Positions 6,507 to 18,395 of a DNA stretch of 64,000 nt are shown here, piece after piece. Position numbers and translations under genes: made by a program. The stretch covers positions 1-64,000 of the forward strand of contig JADZCJ010000083.1 in the NCBI GenBank assembly GCA_020851635.1, given 5' to 3'. The notes under the pieces are model-generated. The model saw nothing but the letters and a program-made list of their open reading frames with translations, had not been told where the DNA came from and did not search any database. Every line of letters begins with the position of its first letter. Within the stretch, counting starts at the first letter, position 1. Origin of the DNA: Anaerolineae bacterium. Lineage in GTDB: Bacteria; Chloroflexota; Anaerolineae; UBA4142; SHND01.

Positions 6507-7190
6507 ATGGCTGCTGACCCATCATCAGACCCCTTATCCGCGCAATTGCAGGCGATTCCTTTGTTTCAAGGATTGGATCAAGCGACTTGTACAGACCTGG
6601 CGCGCCGGATGACGCAACGCGAATACGCCGAGGGTGAAATTATCTTTTTGGAGGGGGAAGCTGCCGCAGGGCTCTACTTTGTCGAATATGGATGGCTCAA
6701 AGCGGTCAGGGCTTTGCCCGAAGGGCGCGAGCATGTTTTGCGCCATATCGGACCCGGCGAGGTCTTGAACGAGATTGGAGCATTTGCTGAACAGCCGAAT
6801 CCCGCGACGGCGATAGCGCTCGAGCCAAGCAAACTTTGGCTTTTGCCGCGCACATCGGTGGTCAAACTCGTGCGCACCCGACCTGAAATTGCCGAGCGCG
6901 TGATTGCCAGTTTGGCGGCGCGTGTTGTCACTCTCGTCAATCTGGTCACGGACCTCTCGTTGCGTCCCGTTGCGGGCCGGCTTGCGCGCTTGTTGCTCGA
7001 CAGCGCCAAAGGCGATACTCTGTATCGTCCACACTGGTATACCCAAGCCGAACTCGCCGCGCGGCTTGGCACCGTGCCGGACGTAGTACAGCGCGGGCTA
7101 CGCAACCTGGAATCGGAAGGCATTATTCAGGTCGAACGCCAGCGCATTCTCATCCTCGACCGCGCCGCCCTGGAACGTCTGGCGAATTAG
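6507..7190 (+). CDS. Crp/Fnr-family transcriptional regulator 2
   Basis: This 227-residue regulator has an N-terminal effector barrel with EGEIIFLEGEAAAGLYFVEYG and GPGEVLNEIGAF. Its C-terminal Crp-type helix-turn-helix contains YTQAELAARLGTVPDVVQRGL near residues 175-200. Only a single cysteine is near the N-terminus, so an Fe-S type sensor is improbable. It follows the radical SAM gene by 69 bp. The downstream 113 bp carry two hairpins before the next small membrane protein. It is the second of four Crp/Fnr genes within 17 kb. Ligand and regulon are unknown. Confidence 0.9.
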   Translation: MAADPSSDPLSAQLQAIPLFQGLDQATCTDLARRMTQREYAEGEIIFLEGEAAAGLYFVEYGWLKAVRALPEGREHVLRHIGPGEVLNEIGAFAEQPNPATAIALEPSKLWLLPRTSVVKLVRTRPEIAERVIASLAARVVTLVNLVTDLSLRPVAGRLARLLLDSAKGDTLYRPHWYTQAELAARLGTVPDVVQRGLRNLESEGIIQVERQRILILDRAALERLAN

Positions 7191-8933: not shown

Positions 8934-9422
8934 TCAGCCAACTTGCTGACGCCCTTGATGACGGCTCCGCCACACCAGAATATAGGCAGCGCGCCAAATC
9001 AAAAGCATCAGTCCGCCAAAGCCAAGCGCTGCCAGGACAAACGCAGTGGGAATGACCGCGCGGTCGAGCCACACGGCGCGGAGGACAATTCCGAGCGGCG
9101 CGGCGACGAGCCATGCGTTTAGCAATCGCCAGAACGCAACGCGCCACCGCAAATCCTCCGCCGAGACGCGATACGCGCCCAACACGGTCGAGGTAACGAG
9201 CCAGGTAATGATAAACGGAAGCGAGGCAAGCAAAAGCCCGCGCACCGGATTCTCTGCATCAATCAGTTCGTGGTCGGCTTGCCCGATATAAACAAAGAGC
9301 AAGAGGGTGACGATATCGCCGAGCATCATGTAGAGCGCGGCGAGGGGGTTTGGAAACAGTCCCGCCATACGCAGCGACAACGGGGGCGTAGGGCGTTTCT
9401 CGAAATTATTGTCGGTTAGCAT
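8934..9422 (-). CDS. DUF3054-type membrane protein
   Basis: This 162-residue protein has four hydrophobic segments. The GDIVTLLLFVYIGQADHE stretch near residue 35 and the downstream LLLASLPFIITWL segment match the DUF3054 family of bacterial and archaeal integral membrane proteins, whose function is unknown. It is transcribed away from the nos locus and toward the terminator at 8863-8895. An internal ATG 18 codons in (MAGLFPNPL) is an alternative start. Confidence 0.7.
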   Translation of the reverse strand: MLTDNNFEKRPTPPLSLRMAGLFPNPLAALYMMLGDIVTLLLFVYIGQADHELIDAENPVRGLLLASLPFIITWLVTSTVLGAYRVSAEDLRWRVAFWRLLNAWLVAAPLGIVLRAVWLDRAVIPTAFVLAALGFGGLMLLIWRAAYILVWRSRHQGRQQVG

Positions 9423-9788: not shown

Positions 9789-10229
9789 CTATTGATGAAT
9801 ACTGCGAATGAACGCGATAATGTCATCCAAATTGGCATCGGTGAGCGCGGGATTGCCCCCCTTGGGCGGCATGTCCACCTGAGTCGTATTTGCCGGGTCA
9901 CTTACCGGACGACCCTTTTTGATAAATGCGAGCAGCTCGGCGTCACTTTGACTCGCCACAAACTCGCTGGTTACGAGATCTTTGCCCAGACCCGGCAGCC
10001 CTTTGGCATCCGGACCATGACATGATGTGCAGCTCGAAGTAAAGAGGGTCTTGCCCTTGGCGGCATCCCCGGCAGCTGCCGACGTATTGGTATCTCCCCC
10101 GGATGTCGAGACGTTTTGAGCGCCCGAGCTGCTGCTGGGCGCGCTCGGTGTTTTGCGCGAAGCGGGAGCCGGCGTGCATGCCGCAATTACAAGTAATAGA
10201 GCAAACAACACAAACACAGCAATCTTCAT
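9789..10229 (-). CDS. Lipoprotein c-type cytochrome of the nos operon
   Basis: This 146-residue monoheme cytochrome starts at an ATG preceded by AGGAGGAAAA. A lipoprotein signal ends in VIAAC (lipid-modified Cys18). A Ser/Thr/Ala-rich linker follows, then the heme site CTSCH and a Met-containing distal region (VDMPPKGGNPALTDANLDDIIAFIRSI, of which MPP is the likely axial ligand). It is the last gene of the nos operon, 32 bp after nosL. It is likely the electron donor that passes electrons from the quinol pool to NosZ outside the membrane. Confidence 0.9.
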   Translation of the reverse strand: MKIAVFVLFALLLVIAACTPAPASRKTPSAPSSSSGAQNVSTSGGDTNTSAAAGDAAKGKTLFTSSCTSCHGPDAKGLPGLGKDLVTSEFVASQSDAELLAFIKKGRPVSDPANTTQVDMPPKGGNPALTDANLDDIIAFIRSIHQ

Positions 10230-10261
10230 TTTTCCTCCTGGAACATGGCTTGGTTTATGAT

Positions 10262-10723
10262 TCATGGCGCGGAATGCAAGACAAGGTGCACATACACACG
10301 TAACTCGTCAAACTTTTTTACGGTCCCACGCACCTGTGCCGCAAATGCCTGCGCCGATGCCTCGTCGGCAAACGCGGCAATGCCATCATTCATCGGCGAT
10401 TGAATCTGCGGACTGTGCACATAATAGGCAGTCTCGCCGCGCAGCCAGACCTGTGTATTATAATCGTGAACAAAATAAGCGCGTACCTGAGACTCGGGGT
10501 GATCCATGTGATAAACAACCATGCCGCCAATATCGTCAAACTTGTGTATGTTTCCGTTCAGGTCAATGGTGGCGGCCGCAAAACGGACATCGCTGATGAT
10601 CATGCTGCACTCGTCGCACACATCCTGCCCGTAAAAAATCTCCGGCGCTCCAATGTCGTTAGCGGACTGTCCACAGCCGACCAAACCGATCACCATGACA
10701 AGGATAAATAGTAGAGTTTTCAT
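10262..10723 (-). CDS. nosL: NosL copper chaperone lipoprotein
   Basis: This 153-residue lipoprotein has a signal peptide ending in LVGC (Cys17). The mature part contains CDECSMII, equivalent to the CxxCGM-type copper-binding motif of NosL, and KFDDIGGMVVY, typical of the family. NosL delivers Cu(I) for assembly of the CuZ centre of nitrous oxide reductase. Its ATG overlaps the end of nosY by 4 bp. The usual glycine of the motif is a serine here, which is a minor variation. Confidence 0.9.
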   Translation of the reverse strand: MKTLLFILVMVIGLVGCGQSANDIGAPEIFYGQDVCDECSMIISDVRFAAATIDLNGNIHKFDDIGGMVVYHMDHPESQVRAYFVHDYNTQVWLRGETAYYVHSPQIQSPMNDGIAAFADEASAQAFAAQVRGTVKKFDELRVYVHLVLHSAP

Positions 10724-11547
10724 ACATCCCCCTTCCGGGCAAAGACCCCATAGGCAAGCGCAAAACTGAGCGCGGTCCAGCCGACCAGCAGGGAGACCAG
10801 CACGAACGGTAGTGTATCACCAAATTGAATCATCGCGTACTGCCCCGCCGCGCCGAGCGTGTCAATTGTAGAGCGCAGGGAGTAGATTGCCCCTAATTTA
10901 AAGATTTGAAGCGGGTTGACAAGCACCAGCGTCAACATGCTCGCCGGGGTGGGACGAAACGCCATCGTCGCGCCAATCAACCCGAGGTCACCGATAAATA
11001 CCAGCGCCAGCCACACGATCATGGCGGCGCCGGACGCAGTGGCGGCTTTGTGCGTCAAGGCGCTGATGATAAAACCGATGCCGAGCGAGGCGAGCGCGAG
11101 CAGGACTGCAAAACCGACGAGCGCCAGGAACGACGCCGGGTCACCGCCTTGGTTGGCAAGCCCCAGACCCGCAATACCAAACCCCAGCGCGAGGGCAGCA
11201 ATGACGGCGAGCGCGGCGCCCAATGCCTTGCCGAAAAAAACCTCGGCGCGGTTCACCGGCTGGGCGAGCAGATAGAGCAAGGTGCCGCGTTCGCGCTCTC
11301 CCGCAATGACGCCCGCGCCGACGGTGATGCCAATGAGGGGCACAAACAGCAAGAGCGAATTGATCAGACTCGCCGCCGTGCGTCCAAAACCGCCCAGCCC
11401 GGCATAACCTGCCGCGCTCATGCCCGCCTGTGCCAACCCAAAGGCGAGCACGCCAAAGCCGAGCGCATAAAACCAGAGCCATTTGTTGCGGAGCGCTTCG
11501 CGCAGTTCGCGCCGCGCGATGGTCCACGTCAGAGTCAGTTCCATCAT
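10720..11547 (-). CDS. nosY: NosY ABC-type permease
   Basis: This 275-residue membrane protein has about six hydrophobic helices. It has the ABC-2 permease signature region GAGVIAGERERGTLLYLLAQPVNR near residues 75-100. It is the permease that pairs with the NosF ATPase and works with NosD in NosZ maturation. It overlaps the nosDF gene by 4 bp upstream and nosL by 4 bp downstream, so the three are translationally coupled. The ATP-binding partner is the C-terminal domain of the preceding fusion protein. Confidence 0.9.
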   Translation of the reverse strand: MMELTLTWTIARRELREALRNKWLWFYALGFGVLAFGLAQAGMSAAGYAGLGGFGRTAASLINSLLLFVPLIGITVGAGVIAGERERGTLLYLLAQPVNRAEVFFGKALGAALAVIAALALGFGIAGLGLANQGGDPASFLALVGFAVLLALASLGIGFIISALTHKAATASGAAMIVWLALVFIGDLGLIGATMAFRPTPASMLTLVLVNPLQIFKLGAIYSLRSTIDTLGAAGQYAMIQFGDTLPFVLVSLLVGWTALSFALAYGVFARKGDV

Positions 11548-13940
11548 TCCACCTCAGTCTGCCGTTCCACTTGAAAATCGTCCACGACAAAGCCATTCGC
11601 TTCGAGGAGCTTGAGCGCGCGTATTTTTTCCTGTGCGCGGGCGCGGACGACAATCGTGCCGCGTCCGTTCAAGTGAGCATCCCATCCTTGCGCGTTCAGA
11701 AACGCGCTGGCGCGTTCGCGCTGTTCGTTTCCCAGCCACAAGGTCAGTTCGACCGCGGGGCTGACCAAGGCGCGCCATTCTTCCAGGTCCATTAGCCGCA
11801 TGGGCTGGTTCTCTGCCAGCCACAACACCCGGTCCGCCAGAGCTTCTACTTCTTCGAGACGGTGCGAGGCAAAGAGGATCGTCTTGCCCTGACGTTTCAA
11901 GTCGTCCACCAATCTCACAAATTCAGCACGCGCTGCCGAGTCCAGGTTGGCGGTCGGTTCGTCCAACAAGAGGATGGGCGGGTCGGCAAGCAGCGCCAGC
12001 GCGAGCGCGAGCCGCTGTTTTTGTCCACCCGACAACGCAGTGACCGATTTCGAGGCGTGTGGCGCAAGCCCCAGTTGTTGGAGCAGCTGGGGGACGCGGG
12101 CGGCGGGAACATGCTTGAGTCGCGCATAAAATTCGCATGTCGTCTGCACGCTCCAGTCATAAAACATGGTGAGCTGGGGCACATAGCCAATAAAGCCGCG
12201 TGTCTTTTTGCCCTGCTGTCGGACTTGGAGCCCCTTGATCCGGATGTTGCCCTGGAACGAAATCAACCCCAGCATCGCCTTGACCAGTGTAGTCTTGCCC
12301 GCGCCGTTGGGTCCCCAGAGGGCGAGCGCCTGTCCCGCCTCGACACAAAACGAAACATCGTTCAGGACGCGCGTTTTGCCATAGGTCTTGCCCACGCTCT
12401 CGGCGCAGACAACGGCTTGAGCAAGTTCCGCCGTGCGGTGCGCCGCAGGCAACGACTGGGCTGTGGGTTTTGGAACAGAATCCGACTCGATCATGGGTTT
12501 ATCTCGCTTCGCAATGACAATTGCTCCTGCTGCAATCATCAGGAGCATGAGAGAAGCCGCGACCATTTCGCGGCGCGTGTCAGCGGGCGGCTGGGTAGTG
12601 GCGGGCAGAGGCGCCGGGGTGAGTCGCGGCGCCGGGTCGGCAAATTTGGGGCGAGGTTTGACAATGGGAAAGGATGCGGCGGCAAATTCGATCGCCTGCG
12701 CCGCAGGCGAATAGAGGAGCACGCGCAGGATCGGCATGCGGTCCGTCATGTTTTCAAACAATTTTTCTGCAACGTAGGGAGTGTCGCCCCTGCCGTCGCC
12801 GTCTGCATCCAGCCCCGTATAGTCACTCCAGAAATTGCCCTGCCATGTATTGGCGTCAGGGCTTCCGCCCCCGCCGTGCACCGACATCTGCTCGATATTT
12901 TCCCAAAAGGTGTTGTTGGTAAATTCAACGCGCTTGACCGCGGGCATGGCGGTGACGGCAACATCGTTAAAGGCAAGGATATTGTTCTCGAAACGCGCAA
13001 ACGAGTTGGGCGTAAATGGAGTGCCGTCCAGAAAAATGCCGCCGCGATTTTCGACCAGCAGGTTATTCTCGACGGTGACATTGTCCGTGTCTTTGAACCC
13101 GAGGGCATAGCCGCTCGGACCCCGCTGGTCCCGCACATCATTGTCTACGAGTTCGACACCCTTGGAATACATTGCATAAATGCCGACCGAATTGTTCAGC
13201 AGACGATTGTTTGCAATGAGCGAGTCGTCACTATACATCAGGTGAACGCCATAGCGCCCGTTCTCGATCAGATTGTTAATGATCCGCACGCCCTGCGAAT
13301 ACCAGATCACCAGATCACGCGCGGCATGCACGTGATTGTTTTCGAGAGTCACGCGCGGGCTATACCACAGGCGAATCCCGTCGCCTTTGCGTCCGCTCTC
13401 ATAGCGCGCCTGGCTGGTAATATCGTTCGCGCGCACAATCGAATCGGGTCCCTCGGCAACAAAGATTCCGAACAGCACTTCGTCCAGACGATTTTGTTCG
13501 ATAAGGGCGCGGGGCGCATTTACGGTGATGCCCGCGTGGTCCTGGTCCGGCTCGCTGCCGCTGTTGCGAATTTCGAAACCGCGCACGGTCACATCGGGCG
13601 CATTGATGGTTACGACCGTCCCGCGTCCGCCGGCATCGAGCGTCGGTTTCTGTCCCGAGACCGAGCCCGGCGTGCCTTCGAGGATCACGGATTTGTCAAG
13701 CACCAGGTTGCCGGTATAGACGCCTCCCCGGACCTCGATCGTGTCACCCGCCTGGGCGGCGGAAAGCGCGGCTTGTATGGTGGTATACGGTCCTTGCGGT
13801 GACACTATGAGCCGCTCGGCGGCGGATGCCGATGCCGACCCGAACAGCGCCCACACGAGCAAAACGCCAAGACCGTACAAGCATTTGAAATGGACGCGCC
13901 ATTTCAGCTGCTTGCAAGCCACAGCGCCGGGCGTGTTCAT
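11544..13940 (-). CDS. nosDF: NosD-NosF fusion protein
   Basis: One uninterrupted 798-residue frame joins two normally separate Nos maturation proteins. Residues 1-41 form a signal peptide. Residues about 45-410 are a right-handed beta-helix of NosD type with repeated NN-turn strands (WYSQGVRIINNLIENGRYG, HLMYSDDSLIANN). A Pro/Ala-rich linker and one transmembrane helix (459-477) follow. Residues about 508-735 are an ABC ATPase with Walker A GPNGAGKTT (543-551), LSGGQ (636-640) and Walker B ILLLDE. The topology, NosD outside and NosF inside, is consistent. The start overlaps nosB by 4 bp. NosDFY energises or supports sulfur and copper loading of NosZ. Confidence 0.93.
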   Translation of the reverse strand: MNTPGAVACKQLKWRVHFKCLYGLGVLLVWALFGSASASAAERLIVSPQGPYTTIQAALSAAQAGDTIEVRGGVYTGNLVLDKSVILEGTPGSVSGQKPTLDAGGRGTVVTINAPDVTVRGFEIRNSGSEPDQDHAGITVNAPRALIEQNRLDEVLFGIFVAEGPDSIVRANDITSQARYESGRKGDGIRLWYSPRVTLENNHVHAARDLVIWYSQGVRIINNLIENGRYGVHLMYSDDSLIANNRLLNNSVGIYAMYSKGVELVDNDVRDQRGPSGYALGFKDTDNVTVENNLLVENRGGIFLDGTPFTPNSFARFENNILAFNDVAVTAMPAVKRVEFTNNTFWENIEQMSVHGGGGSPDANTWQGNFWSDYTGLDADGDGRGDTPYVAEKLFENMTDRMPILRVLLYSPAAQAIEFAAASFPIVKPRPKFADPAPRLTPAPLPATTQPPADTRREMVAASLMLLMIAAGAIVIAKRDKPMIESDSVPKPTAQSLPAAHRTAELAQAVVCAESVGKTYGKTRVLNDVSFCVEAGQALALWGPNGAGKTTLVKAMLGLISFQGNIRIKGLQVRQQGKKTRGFIGYVPQLTMFYDWSVQTTCEFYARLKHVPAARVPQLLQQLGLAPHASKSVTALSGGQKQRLALALALLADPPILLLDEPTANLDSAARAEFVRLVDDLKRQGKTILFASHRLEEVEALADRVLWLAENQPMRLMDLEEWRALVSPAVELTLWLGNEQRERASAFLNAQGWDAHLNGRGTIVVRARAQEKIRALKLLEANGFVVDDFQVERQTEVE

Positions 13941-14629
13941 GCCTTCACCGCCGTGGCTTGTGCCGCCGCATGTTTGCGCGCCTCTACCACGGGTTTATAG
14001 GCACGGCGATGAAAATACAAGCCGATCAATGTGACCACACCCGCCAGGAGGGAGAGAAAAAACCCTATTTCCAGACTGGAAGAGGTGCCGAATTGTCCGA
14101 TTGCGCCCGCTCCAATGAGCGGGGGGGTAAAGGGCTTGATGGCGCCCCCCAATGCCGAAGTCGGATCAATCGAGTGCCCGTAGGTGTAGAGAATATACCA
14201 GAGGTCGGCAAGGAAAATGAATGGGAACGCGAGAATGGGCAGGGCAAGCAAGAGCGCGAATTGATTGTGGACAAAGACGCTGGCTGCCAGAATCAAGCCG
14301 ATCGAAACAATGGCGAGGAGCGAGAGCGAGCGTTCCAACCGTCCGCCCTCGTCCAGCGGCGGCATCCCCAGATAATGATTGAGCGCATCTATTTCGCGCA
14401 TGTCGCCCTCGAGACGGTTCACATACACGTCTACCGACAAGCCCTTGGGATACTGCGGCGCGGTCATTTCCATACGCCAATAGGGCAAAAAGGTCGAAGC
14501 CACGAGAATCAGGGCGGCGATGGTAAAGATTGCGTTTGGAACCATAAACGCGTTCAGCGGACGACGCGAGCCATCCGCCAGTTCGACTTGAATGTCGGGT
14601 CCAAACAGAGAAACAATAAAGTTCTTCAT
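13937..14629 (-). CDS. nosB: NosB-like membrane protein
   Basis: This 230-residue protein has about five or six hydrophobic segments. Its external loop contains MTAPQYPKGLSVDVYVNRLEG and DALNHYLGMPPL, a pattern I recognise from the membrane protein encoded after nosZ in clade II (atypical) nos clusters, called nosB in epsilonproteobacteria. ATG 14629 is chosen; a longer frame would read through the hairpin at 14664-14697. It overlaps nosDF by 4 bp. The exact role in N2O reduction is not known, but its position supports the nosZ-nosB-nosD order. Confidence 0.75.
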   Translation of the reverse strand: MKNFIVSLFGPDIQVELADGSRRPLNAFMVPNAIFTIAALILVASTFLPYWRMEMTAPQYPKGLSVDVYVNRLEGDMREIDALNHYLGMPPLDEGGRLERSLSLLAIVSIGLILAASVFVHNQFALLLALPILAFPFIFLADLWYILYTYGHSIDPTSALGGAIKPFTPPLIGAGAIGQFGTSSSLEIGFFLSLLAGVVTLIGLYFHRRAYKPVVEARKHAAAQATAVKA

Positions 14630-14663
14630 TACGGATATTATGAACCTCTGTGCGGTCAAGGGC

Positions 14664-14697
14664 GCTGGGGAATCAGTCGTGCGACTGATTCCCCAGC
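14664..14697. other. Perfect 16-bp hairpin between nosZ and nosB
   Basis: Arms 14664-14679 and 14682-14697 are exact complements with only TG between them. It begins 7 bp past the nosZ stop. No T-run follows on the minus strand. It probably stabilises the nosZ mRNA end or attenuates read-through so that nosZ is expressed above the assembly genes. Confidence 0.7.
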
Positions 14698-14704
14698 ACA
14701 ACTT

Positions 14705-16732
14705 TTAATTGGGTTCCACCATGAAATAACCCAGCATTTCAAGATGGAGCGCCGAGCAGAATTCAGTGCAATAGTATGCATAAGTCCCGCTCATGTTGGC
14801 GTCAAATTCAATCGTTTCGGTCTTGCCCGGTTCCAGCGACAGATTGATATTGTATCCCGGCAAGGCAAAGCCATGTGTGGCGTCGCGTGTCTGTTCGAGA
14901 TTTGTAAAGTGCCAGATGACGTGGTCGCCTTGCTTGATGCGGATATGTTCCGGCGTAAAGTGCGAGCGCACGACCGCCATCCAGATTTCGACGTTATTGC
15001 CATTGCGGACGACTTTGGCTTGGTCCGGTCCGGTGATCGCATTCGGGTCCTGCTGCATGGTCTCGGGATTGGTCCCGACCGGATACACTTCCAGGGGTGC
15101 GAGCTTGTCCGCTTTGATGATCTGAGCATAGTGCGGCTCAGCCATGCCGATCGGCATGTCATACAGCACCTTCATGGTGTCGCCGGTCTGGCTTGTATCC
15201 ACCAGTTGAAAATTCTGCGGCAGCAGTGGACCTACATTTGCAAAGCGGTCAATACTCCACTTGTTCAAGGCGACCACATAATTGCCATCGGGAGATGAGG
15301 TGTCGCCTTCGGCAGCGGCAATATGACCGATGTTGTATTGCACAGGCAATTTCTGCACGAGCGTCCAGGGTTCTTCTGGATGCAGCCCCTGATAGGGACC
15401 GCCCAGCGTCCAGCGCGCGACCACCGAATCGAGGAACAAAGAGGTATAGGCGTAGCCCTTGTCATCATACACCGTGTGCAGCGGACCAAGCCCCAGTTCC
15501 ACTTGTGCTTCCATGGTCGAGTCCAGCGAAAGCACCGGAACCCCAAACTCGTCCTTGGTCATGGTGCCTTCGTTCAACGCGGCGATGGCTTTTTGGATCT
15601 TGTCGAACGAATAGATGGTTACGTGCGGGTCGAGTTTGCCGCCGACCACCACATATTCACCTCCCGGCGTCACATCCGCGCCGTGCGGCGATTTCGGTTC
15701 GGGGGTGAAATAGAGCACACCTTCTTTTGCGGCGGTATCGAGGCGGATCAAAGGCATTCCTTTGATGGTTTCCACTTTGCCCGCTTTGTAGAGCTCTTCG
15801 GCTTTTTTCCAGTTTACGATGTGCAAATAGTCAGTGTCGTTCTTGGCGGTCCCCGCTTCAAACGGCGGATTGCCATCTTCCACGCCGCCGGTTGCCAATT
15901 CGGTATTGAACGAGTTGCAGAACAACCAGCCGTCGCTCACTTTCTTGCCCGCGTCGCACAGGTCTTGAAAGTACGGCGGGAGCTCGATCGAGAACGACTG
16001 CGCGGGATCAATGCGTCCCGTGGCGCGGTCGAATTTCCACAGCGTCATGACGCCGCGATATTCCTCTTTATAATTTGCGATATCCGAATATTCCCAGCCA
16101 AGGGGCGCCGCATACTGGGGTCCTTCGATAATATATTCCGTGTTGGGCGTCACGAACGAGCCGCCGTGGTCGTTGATCGCCAGCGGGTTCTTGACGATTT
16201 GCTTGGTTGCAAAGTCCTTGAGGTCTATCACCGCGACACGCGCGTTCGCCTTGTCGTTGATAAACAAGAATTGCCCGTCATACTCGCCGTTGGTTTCCGA
16301 GAGACCGGGATGATGGGTATCGCCCCAGAGAATCTCGTTGTCTCCAACCTTGCCTTGCGCCAGGATAGCGTTACCTGCCCCGCCAAATCCATAACCCTGC
16401 CAGGGTTCCGGCGTAAAGACGCCGATGAGTTTCAAGATGCGCATCGAAGGCACGCCAACGACCAGCACCTGCCCGCCCTGTCCGCCGGAAGCGAACATGA
16501 TATACGGGTCGAGTTGTCCCGAGGGCATAAACGTTTTCAGCGCCGCCGTGACATCATCCGGCGAAAGTCCGCGTTCGGCGGCAACCTGCGCCGCGTCGGC
16601 AGACAAGCCCGCCTGCGAGGTGGTTCCACCCACCGCGCTTTCGCGGGTCGGAGTTTGTCGTCCCGGACCGCAAGCCATGATAATGGCGGCAAGCACCAGA
16701 ACGATAGCGCAGAGCAAAATCAACTTTTTCAT
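14705..16732 (-). CDS. nosZ: Nitrous oxide reductase, clade II type
   Basis: This 675-residue enzyme reduces N2O to N2 at the tetranuclear CuZ centre using electrons received at CuA. The start is ATG 16732, after GGAG. The signal region has no twin-arginine motif and ends in the lipobox IIMAC (Cys21), so the enzyme is probably Sec-exported and lipid-anchored. The N-terminal beta-propeller holds the CuZ histidine motif WGDTHHPG. The C-terminal cupredoxin has CTEFCSALHLEM (C655, C659, H663, M666) for CuA. Two Crp/Fnr genes lie directly upstream and NosBDFYL with a cytochrome downstream. Sec export and the nosB neighbour mark it as clade II. Confidence 0.96.
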   Translation of the reverse strand: MKKLILLCAIVLVLAAIIMACGPGRQTPTRESAVGGTTSQAGLSADAAQVAAERGLSPDDVTAALKTFMPSGQLDPYIMFASGGQGGQVLVVGVPSMRILKLIGVFTPEPWQGYGFGGAGNAILAQGKVGDNEILWGDTHHPGLSETNGEYDGQFLFINDKANARVAVIDLKDFATKQIVKNPLAINDHGGSFVTPNTEYIIEGPQYAAPLGWEYSDIANYKEEYRGVMTLWKFDRATGRIDPAQSFSIELPPYFQDLCDAGKKVSDGWLFCNSFNTELATGGVEDGNPPFEAGTAKNDTDYLHIVNWKKAEELYKAGKVETIKGMPLIRLDTAAKEGVLYFTPEPKSPHGADVTPGGEYVVVGGKLDPHVTIYSFDKIQKAIAALNEGTMTKDEFGVPVLSLDSTMEAQVELGLGPLHTVYDDKGYAYTSLFLDSVVARWTLGGPYQGLHPEEPWTLVQKLPVQYNIGHIAAAEGDTSSPDGNYVVALNKWSIDRFANVGPLLPQNFQLVDTSQTGDTMKVLYDMPIGMAEPHYAQIIKADKLAPLEVYPVGTNPETMQQDPNAITGPDQAKVVRNGNNVEIWMAVVRSHFTPEHIRIKQGDHVIWHFTNLEQTRDATHGFALPGYNINLSLEPGKTETIEFDANMSGTYAYYCTEFCSALHLEMLGYFMVEPN

Positions 16733-16865: not shown

Positions 16866-17540
16866 TCAGGCGCGCAGCGCCAGCGCGGCAGCATCCAAGA
16901 CTACAATCTCCTGCCCATGAATCTCGATCAATCCATCGTGTTCCAACTTTTTCAGCGCGCGCCATGCAACTTCGCGCGCCGTGCCAACCATCGCCGCAAG
17001 CTCTTGGCGTGTGAGGGGTCGTTCCAGTTTCGGATGCGGCGGCGAGGTGTCATCGCCAACCACCTGTTCGAGCAAGACATGGCACACCCGCGCCGTGACA
17101 TCTTTGAATGCCAGATCATTGGCGAGCGCCGCCAGTTTTCGCAGCCGCGCGCTGACCAGATTCAAAAGCACATTCAAAACACTCGGATACTGCGCGATCA
17201 ACTGGCGGGCTGCGCCCGGCGCAAACCGATAGACGACGACGGGGGTCATTGTTTTCGCCGTGACCGCGTGCGTGCCGCCGTCAAATAACGGAATCGGATC
17301 GAGCACATCGCCGTGACCGAGCAGATCGAGAATCTGTTCCTTGTCTCCGCACGCTTTGCAGAGCTTGATATTGCCTGACTTGATGACATGCAAACCGCTG
17401 AATGGGGTGTTTTCTTTGAGCACAAACTTGCGCGCGCCAAAACTCACCTCGGTCATGTTGGCGTAAAGCATTCGCTGGTCGGCGGGCGCAAGATCAGCCC
17501 AGAGGGACACCGTCTCAAACGGTTGCGCGTTTCCGGTCAT
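16866..17540 (-). CDS. Crp/Fnr-family transcriptional regulator 3
   Basis: This 224-residue regulator has an effector barrel (GLHVIKSGNIKLCKACGDKEQ; a CxxC pair near residue 60) and a C-terminal Crp-type helix-turn-helix with LTRQELAAMVGTAREVAWRAL. ATG 17540 was chosen over a longer frame because the upstream extension overlaps the stop of regulator 4. It sits directly upstream of nosZ in the same direction, so control of the nos operon is the natural hypothesis. The CxxC could bind metal or form a disulfide, but this is speculative. Confidence 0.9.
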   Translation of the reverse strand: MTGNAQPFETVSLWADLAPADQRMLYANMTEVSFGARKFVLKENTPFSGLHVIKSGNIKLCKACGDKEQILDLLGHGDVLDPIPLFDGGTHAVTAKTMTPVVVYRFAPGAARQLIAQYPSVLNVLLNLVSARLRKLAALANDLAFKDVTARVCHVLLEQVVGDDTSPPHPKLERPLTRQELAAMVGTAREVAWRALKKLEHDGLIEIHGQEIVVLDAAALALRA

Positions 17541-17580
17541 GATTCCACTACCTTTTCTTGAGGCGCAGTATAGAAAAGGA

Positions 17581-17609
17581 TGTGACTTGCATCTAGGATT
17601 AAAGTCACA
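17581..17609. promoter_or_regulatory. Crp-like inverted repeat between two crp genes
   Basis: TGTGACTT (17581-17588) and AAGTCACA (17602-17609) form a perfect 8-bp dyad with a 13-bp spacer. TGTGA/TCACA is the classic Crp half-site, though the spacing is longer than the usual 6 bp. It lies 41 bp upstream of the regulator 3 start and overlaps the last codon of regulator 4. Confidence 0.45.
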
Positions 17610-18321
17610 CATTACGCGCAGATTCATGACCAATTAACTGCTCGAGCTGGGGAAGGTCAAAGAGGGTGATATGCTTGCCGTCGGCTTGCAGCAGCCCTTG
17701 GCGTTCGAACTGAAGAAGCGTCCGCGCGATAACTGCCCGGTCCGTGCCCACACACGAGGCAACGAGCTCTTGGGTCAGGTCAAGGTCCATTTCAACGCCG
17801 CGCGCCGTAGCAACCCCGTTTGTGTGGGCGTATTCCACAAGCGCCGCCGCCACGCGCACACGAATACAGTGCAGCGCCAGCGCGGAGGTGAGGCGCGCAA
17901 AATGGCGATAGCGGTCCGCCATCATCTTGCCAAACGCCATCCCCAGTTCCGCATCGCCGATCATTTGCTCAGCCACAAGATTTTTGTTCAACAGACGAAG
18001 GGTCACGGGTTCCAGCGCCTGCGCCGAGATGGGACTTGATTCGCCATCGAACAGGGGACACGTGCCAAGACAAAAACGGTCTGTCGTCCGCACGATGCAC
18101 ACTGTCAATTCATGCCCGTCCGGGGCGGTCTTGTATAGGCGCACCCGTCCCCGTTCGAGAAACCACAAATATTGGCTGGGTTCCCCTTCCGAGAAAATGT
18201 GCTCGCCCTTGTCATAGGTGCAGGTCAGCGTTATTTTGCCGAGAATTCGCCGTTCCAGGTCCGAGAGGTGCGCAAACGCCGGCGATGCCGCATCCAGCCG
18301 GGTGGGGATGGTTTTTCCCAT
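17605..18321 (-). CDS. Crp/Fnr-family transcriptional regulator 4
   Basis: This 238-residue protein has a cNMP-type barrel (YDKGEHIFSEGEPSQYLWFLE; PDGHELTVCIV) and a C-terminal helix-turn-helix with LTQELVASCVGTDRAVIART. Three cysteines cluster in the barrel region (VCIV, FCLGTC) and one lies near residue 34, which could form a metal or redox site. It is the first gene of the minus-strand run that leads through regulator 3 to nosZ. The tandem pair suggests a layered response to oxygen and nitrogen oxides. The ligand is unknown. Confidence 0.9.
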   Translation of the reverse strand: MGKTIPTRLDAASPAFAHLSDLERRILGKITLTCTYDKGEHIFSEGEPSQYLWFLERGRVRLYKTAPDGHELTVCIVRTTDRFCLGTCPLFDGESSPISAQALEPVTLRLLNKNLVAEQMIGDAELGMAFGKMMADRYRHFARLTSALALHCIRVRVAAALVEYAHTNGVATARGVEMDLDLTQELVASCVGTDRAVIARTLLQFERQGLLQADGKHITLFDLPQLEQLIGHESARNV

Positions 18322-18395
18322 ACACGCCAATCTAGCCGAGCGGGGCGGTTGTGCAAAGTGATATTTGTCATCTCAAAAGGGGGTGATATGCCCGC

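Follow-up and report, generated by a model that had tools for sequence, protein, structure and literature searches.

How does the NosDFY machine operate when two of its subunits, NosD and NosF, are made as one chain? NosDFY loads copper into N2O reductase and decides its activity, and N2O is a greenhouse gas, of which Chloroflexota are prominent reducers in wastewater. To our knowledge, it is not yet fully settled how NosDFY links ATP use inside the cell to the delivery of metal or sulfur outside. In a natural NosD-NosF fusion, one contact of this machine is fixed, which opens its asymmetric stoichiometry to direct testing. Such a fusion had been predicted in a 64,000-nucleotide stretch of Anaerolineae DNA (hereafter the window), and we followed it up here.

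NosD and NosF are joined through a membrane helix

As originally predicted, the nosDF gene is a single frame of 798 residues with both domains complete and no internal stop, and it shares 4 bp with each of its neighbors, nosY and nosB. The frame lies on the minus strand, as do nosY (10720-11547) and nosB (13937-14701 as the longest frame) (Table 1). NosF is here not encoded as a separate cytoplasmic polypeptide; it shares its frame with NosD. The single membrane helix, previously placed at residues 459-477, spans residues 456-479 in our AlphaFold2 model.

Table 1. Positions of the nos genes and of the parts of nosDF within the window
Feature	Position	Strand	Details
nosZ, clade II, Sec/lipoprotein signal	14705-16732	minus	TIGR04246, 835 bits (cut-off 625); lipobox IMAC; start set at MKKLILL, longest frame extends to 16894
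nosB	13937-14629	minus	directly downstream of nosZ; motifs LNHYLGM and YGHS; start set at MKNF, longest frame extends to 14701
Fused nosDF	11544-13940	minus	798 codons, 798 aa; single open frame; 4-bp overlap with each neighbor
Signal peptide region, residues 1-40	13821-13940	minus	hydrophobic helix 11-33 in AlphaFold2 model; end ASASA-A
NosD domain (beta-helix and C-terminal helices), residues 41-450	12591-13820	minus	TIGR04247, 7o0y_A, AlphaFold2
Membrane helix, residues 456-479	12504-12575	minus	AlphaFold2 helix; mean hydropathy 2.56 across 19 residues
Disordered inner (cytoplasmic) linker, residues 480-508	12417-12503	minus	pLDDT 38-57; 24% identity among relatives
Candidate internal ribosome-binding stretch, gcgaagcgagataaaccc	12495-12512	minus	moderate match only
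Candidate internal start ATG, Met483	12492-12494	minus	would yield free NosF of 316 aa; Shine-Dalgarno energy of -5.0 kcal/mol (synonymous-codon null, p=0.05)
NosF-type ABC ATPase domain, residues 509-798	11547-12416	minus	motifs, PF00005, 7o0y_B, Foldseek
nosY, ABC-2 permease	10720-11547	minus	PF12679, 105 bits
nosL lipoprotein	10262-10723	minus	PF05573, 67 bits
Lipoprotein cytochrome c	9789-10229	minus	PF00034, 50 bits; start set at MKIAV

The NosD profile TIGR04247 recognizes residues 55-440 with 382 bits against a curated cut-off of 300, covering positions 1-376 of 377, and PF05048 matches residues 172-376. The ATPase part is matched by ABC_tran (PF00005, 107 bits) over residues 526-664. 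In sequence searches, Pseudomonas stutzeri NosD (7o0y_A) matches residues 69-442 and its NosF (7o0y_B) matches residues 513-730. When raw phmmer scores are compared for the ATPase part, NosF is outranked by two-domain ABCA proteins; a Foldseek search with the nosDF model returns NosF at ranks 1, 2 and 4, the best matches being 7osf_B and 7o14_B from the NosDFYL and NosDFY complexes. All nucleotide-site motifs of the ATPase are present (Walker A GPNGAGKT, Q-loop VPQ, signature LSGGQ, Walker B ILLLDEPT, H-loop SH), and they are largely invariant across the alignment.

The AlphaFold2 model, which was built on 26 fused homologues and has a mean pLDDT of 85.9, contains a confident beta-helix (pLDDT mostly >90), C-terminal helices up to residue 423, a disordered stretch at residues 480-505 and a confident ABC fold from residue 509, with a Pro-rich stretch between the beta-helix and the membrane helix. 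From the signal helix, the NosD part is predicted to be an exported right-handed beta-helix. It would stay outside, anchored by the C-terminal helix, and the chain would resume inside as an ATPase that pairs with NosY. Our results support this topology, with NosD outside and NosF inside via one membrane helix, as well as the integrity of the fusion.

The further suggestion that the fusion directly couples ATP hydrolysis to periplasmic handling was not borne out. The inner linker is predicted to be disordered (pLDDT 38-39), and in the window's clade it has 24% identity versus 60-65% for both domains, which points to a tether rather than a lever. Given this disorder, it is most likely that the helix holds the subunits together instead of transmitting force; it would raise their local concentration, and coupling most likely still runs through NosY.

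The operon reads nosZ-nosB-nosDF-nosY-nosL-cytochrome c, all on the minus strand. Judged from its gene content, a Sec-type NosZ and then nosB, the cluster is a clade II nos cluster. The nosB product has zero matches in Pfam or NCBIfam, but its LNHYLGM and YGHS match the motifs described for NosB, LNHYIGM and YGHN (PMC9697520). The operon holds one nosY, and a separate nosF was not found in it. Other ATPase matches listed for the window's genome show 35-38% identity over about 200 residues, which is typical of general ABC proteins. NosDFY is needed for the CuZ center of NosZ in other organisms (PMC7558416). From the protein family, the operon and such studies, we infer that nosDF serves CuZ maturation, and the NosDFY machine containing it would mature the clade II NosZ, whose gene lies two genes upstream.

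The fusion is widespread in Chloroflexota

The window comes from a draft genome of 144 contigs, where a sequencing or assembly error could have deleted the stop and start codons between two genes. This explanation is vanishingly improbable, since dozens of independent genomes share the same join, among them that of Thermomicrobium roseum DSM 5159, which is finished, and a sequencing indel or assembly error was ruled out on these grounds. The same fused frame in three genomes of the same genus (65-72% identity) and in dozens of others likewise excludes a chance frame, in agreement with the original prediction.

The stop-free NosD-NosF frame recurs in each set that we surveyed (60 relatives, 20 genomes from the order and 396 from the class). 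In the same class, about 49 of 86 nos-bearing genomes carry the fusion, by our count among the 396 genomes that left out frames with internal stops. It was also found in 7-8 of 12 matches from other Chloroflexota classes, in 8 of 11 from Calditrichota, in 3 of 11 Planctomycetota genomes (one with two copies), and in MAGs of Armatimonadota and Tectomicrobia. Among named relatives, Anaerolineae MAGs come closest to the window. Viral contigs gave distant beta-helix matches only. In the Planctomycetota genome G927, the two fused copies lie on contigs 7 and 59.

Separate genes had been taken as the usual form. They are indeed separate in P. stutzeri and in some relatives of the window, and nosD and nosF also lie apart on Cupriavidus necator pHG1, but the fused form is common throughout Chloroflexota and appears again in Calditrichota, Planctomycetota and others. 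The prediction had also raised the prospect that the form is widespread and already described. Widespread it is; we found no description of a NosD-NosF fusion in the openly licensed papers searched, an absence that is not proof, and the fusion seems to have gone unremarked so far.

Fusions of other nos neighbors are already known, namely NosB-NosL of Dyadobacter and Flavobacterium (PMC9697520) and NosB-NosC2 (PMC11409646). Like the window's gene, they join neighboring nos genes in one membrane protein, but they involve other partners and no ATPase. In T. roseum, the NosD-helix-NosF fusion (WP_012643063.1) is carried on the megaplasmid between a hypothetical gene at the nosB position and a permease gene, and RefSeq labels it only as NosD. 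The description of the nosZDYL cluster of Thermoflexus hugenholtzii gives nosD, nosY, nosL and nosZ and no nosF, an absence that passes unremarked in that part of the paper (PMC8129789). This is consistent with an overlooked fusion, and the Thermoflexus loci L093 and L096 are fused in our data, like the window. Annotation pipelines can thus call nosF missing in fused genomes such as these two, and N2O-reducing potential can be misjudged.

Two candidates were set aside. A second NosF was sought elsewhere in Thermoflexus, where the best extra match is an ABC-2 ATPase beside shikimate-pathway-type genes, not nos genes. A 1258-residue NosB-NosD-NosF-NosY single frame in isolate SSC4 (L009/L101) has ambiguous bases at the gene borders and is probably an artefact.

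A hydrophobic helix occupies the membrane position in nearly all fused relatives and is absent in G003. In this same-genus genome (L007/L046/L138; contig 357, fused frame 130-2205), about 40 residues comprising the membrane helix and inner linker are missing. With such a frame, NosF would face the wrong side of the membrane; either the deletion is real or the assembly has collapsed here.

Origin of the join

Unfused relatives offer a potential explanation for how the fusion arose. Their NosD often carries a terminal membrane helix behind a Pro-rich stretch (L011, L012 and L016), and a membrane helix is likewise reported at the C-terminus of each of the five NosDs of Bacillus azotoformans (PMC3475470). 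The window's NosD shares this helix, but in B. azotoformans and the unfused Chloroflexota the chain stops after it and nosF is a separate gene. The nosF start of unfused relatives lies no more than a few bases from the nosD stop, and the two codons often overlap by 1 nt. The fusion would have formed when a tail-anchored NosD was joined to the nosF gene just behind it, and because NosD was already tail-anchored ahead of an adjoining nosF, the join leaves the topology unchanged.

A tree of 104 NosD domains, made by a quick method so that the counts are approximate, implies at least 12 changes between the fused and separate states, at least 7 of them forced by starred branches alone. Joins and/or splits of nosD and nosF have thus recurred, with separate genes persisting in relatives. 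These state changes, the frequent 1-nt overlap of the unfused genes, and the separate genes of L011 from the same order, which sit inside a fused clade, all speak for neutral joining, in which adjacent and often overlapping genes would join and separate through drift, leaving function unaffected. We nevertheless consider drift an unlikely account, because the fused form is the majority among the sampled nos-bearing genomes of the class and among the Calditrichota matches, and because the membrane helix is retained across long divergence.

The genome that carries L011 (G019, L011/L137) has its nosF 59 nt past the nosD stop and in a different frame, nested in the otherwise fused clade; its separate genes are likely either the product of fission or an unfused survivor.

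Internal start signals in the linker

The fusion creates a stoichiometry problem that the original prediction missed, together with the internal-start signature described below. P. stutzeri NosDFY (7o0y and related entries; 7osf with NosL) resembles the window's system in its NosD beta-helix, in the family of its NosF ATPase and in having NosY and NosL next to them. However, its NosD and NosF are separate chains, with one NosD per two NosF, whereas in the window they form one chain via the membrane helix. Counting chains in the PDB, the solved NosDFY structures hold 16 NosD chains in 16 entries versus 30 NosF chains in 15 entries, a ratio of 1:2. A strict fusion would place two NosD in each complex, unlike the solved arrangement.

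In most fused frames, an in-frame ATG preceded by a ribosome-binding site persists between the helix and the ATPase, far above chance; this feature is new here. An ATG lies in the inner linker of 31 of 39 non-redundant fusions versus 14.4 expected (P ~2e-8) and, in the window's clade, of 16 of 19 versus 6.7 expected (P=7e-6), although this count is an imperfect test, since outside the window's clade ATGs are frequent in the outer linker too, apparently via a PLMxP motif, and all P values given here are nominal, the fusion sequences being related to one another. The remaining 8 of the 39 representative fusions have no linker ATG.

The ribosome-binding signal at linker ATGs exceeds a synonymous-codon null (P=0.002). 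Its mean energy is -5.2, near the -6.9 of true nosF starts in unfused relatives; the outer linker averages -1.8, the membrane helix -2.2 and other ATGs within the gene -2.8. The cleanest control is given by the outer linker and the helix, where starts are not expected and the signal was not seen. RNA structure is also weaker around linker ATGs (-8.1 versus -11.2 kcal/mol, P=5e-4). Several starts of the window's own nos genes have good Shine-Dalgarno sites (nosL -10.8, cytochrome c -10.3, nosY -6.2).

We lean, on balance, toward a model in which the genuine NosD-helix-NosF fusion supplies both NosDFY subunits for CuZ maturation and most members also yield free NosF from within the gene, so that a 1:2:2 complex is kept. 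The core would be a dimer of NosY, encoded by the single adjoining nosY, and would hold two ATPase domains; one or both of these would bear an outside NosD arm via the membrane helix. Initiation at the internal ribosome-binding site and ATG would give free NosF, and one NosDF plus one NosF on the NosY dimer would reproduce the 1 NosD : 2 NosF : 2 NosY of the solved complex. Both internal translation and the 1:2:2 stoichiometry of the fused system are what we infer from these observations. More tentatively, nosDF could be a dual-product gene under selection, in which translation sets the asymmetry between NosDF and NosF and hence which ATPase bears the NosD arm.

Not all fusions carry strong signals of this kind. 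The window's own site at Met483 is moderate (-5.0, p=0.05). Thermoflexus and its kin (L010, L078, L093) have no convincing internal start, and T. roseum (L135), unlike the window, has no ATG before the ATPase, only a GTG with an energy of -2.4. Free NosF therefore cannot be required everywhere, and fusion-only complexes presumably exist in some lineages. In many lineages outside the window's clade, moreover, the ATG lies at the ancestral NosF start, position -33, and some of the ATG signal could be left over from a recent fusion.

An obligate fusion would fit these cases. Only full-length NosDF would then be made, giving 2 NosD : 2 NosF : 2 NosY or leaving one NosD displaced and idle, for which both linkers are long enough, and the internal ATGs would be relics of the former nosF start, as the 14 at the ancestral position -33 suggest. 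As a general account we find this possible but doubtful: the window's clade keeps an ATG and ribosome-binding site at shifting places despite the 24% linker identity, which is unexpected for a relic, and the solved complexes have one NosD per two NosF.

Free NosF could instead arise if the whole fusion were made and a protease then cut the inner linker, releasing soluble NosF from a tail-anchored NosD and so giving the separate proteins of other organisms. The linker is disordered in the model and its sequence varies freely, as such a cut would allow, but the linker alignment shows no conserved cleavage motif and the translation-start signals would be left unexplained. We regard this route as very unlikely compared with the internal start of our preferred model.

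The thermophile fusions of Thermoflexus and its kin and of T. roseum are natural test cases for a fusion-only complex.

Surroundings of the nos operon

Lipobox signals on NosZ, NosL and the cytochrome c (9789-16732) make the exported parts appear membrane-bound. Many Chloroflexota have no periplasm, and membrane-bound exported parts fit with this. Just downstream of the cytochrome c gene, on the same strand as the operon, lies a gene for a DUF3054 protein (8934-9422). Two overlapping Crp/FNR-family regulator frames are found just upstream of nosZ (16866-18330) and a third beyond the operon (6507-7190); these are likely redox or N-oxide regulators.
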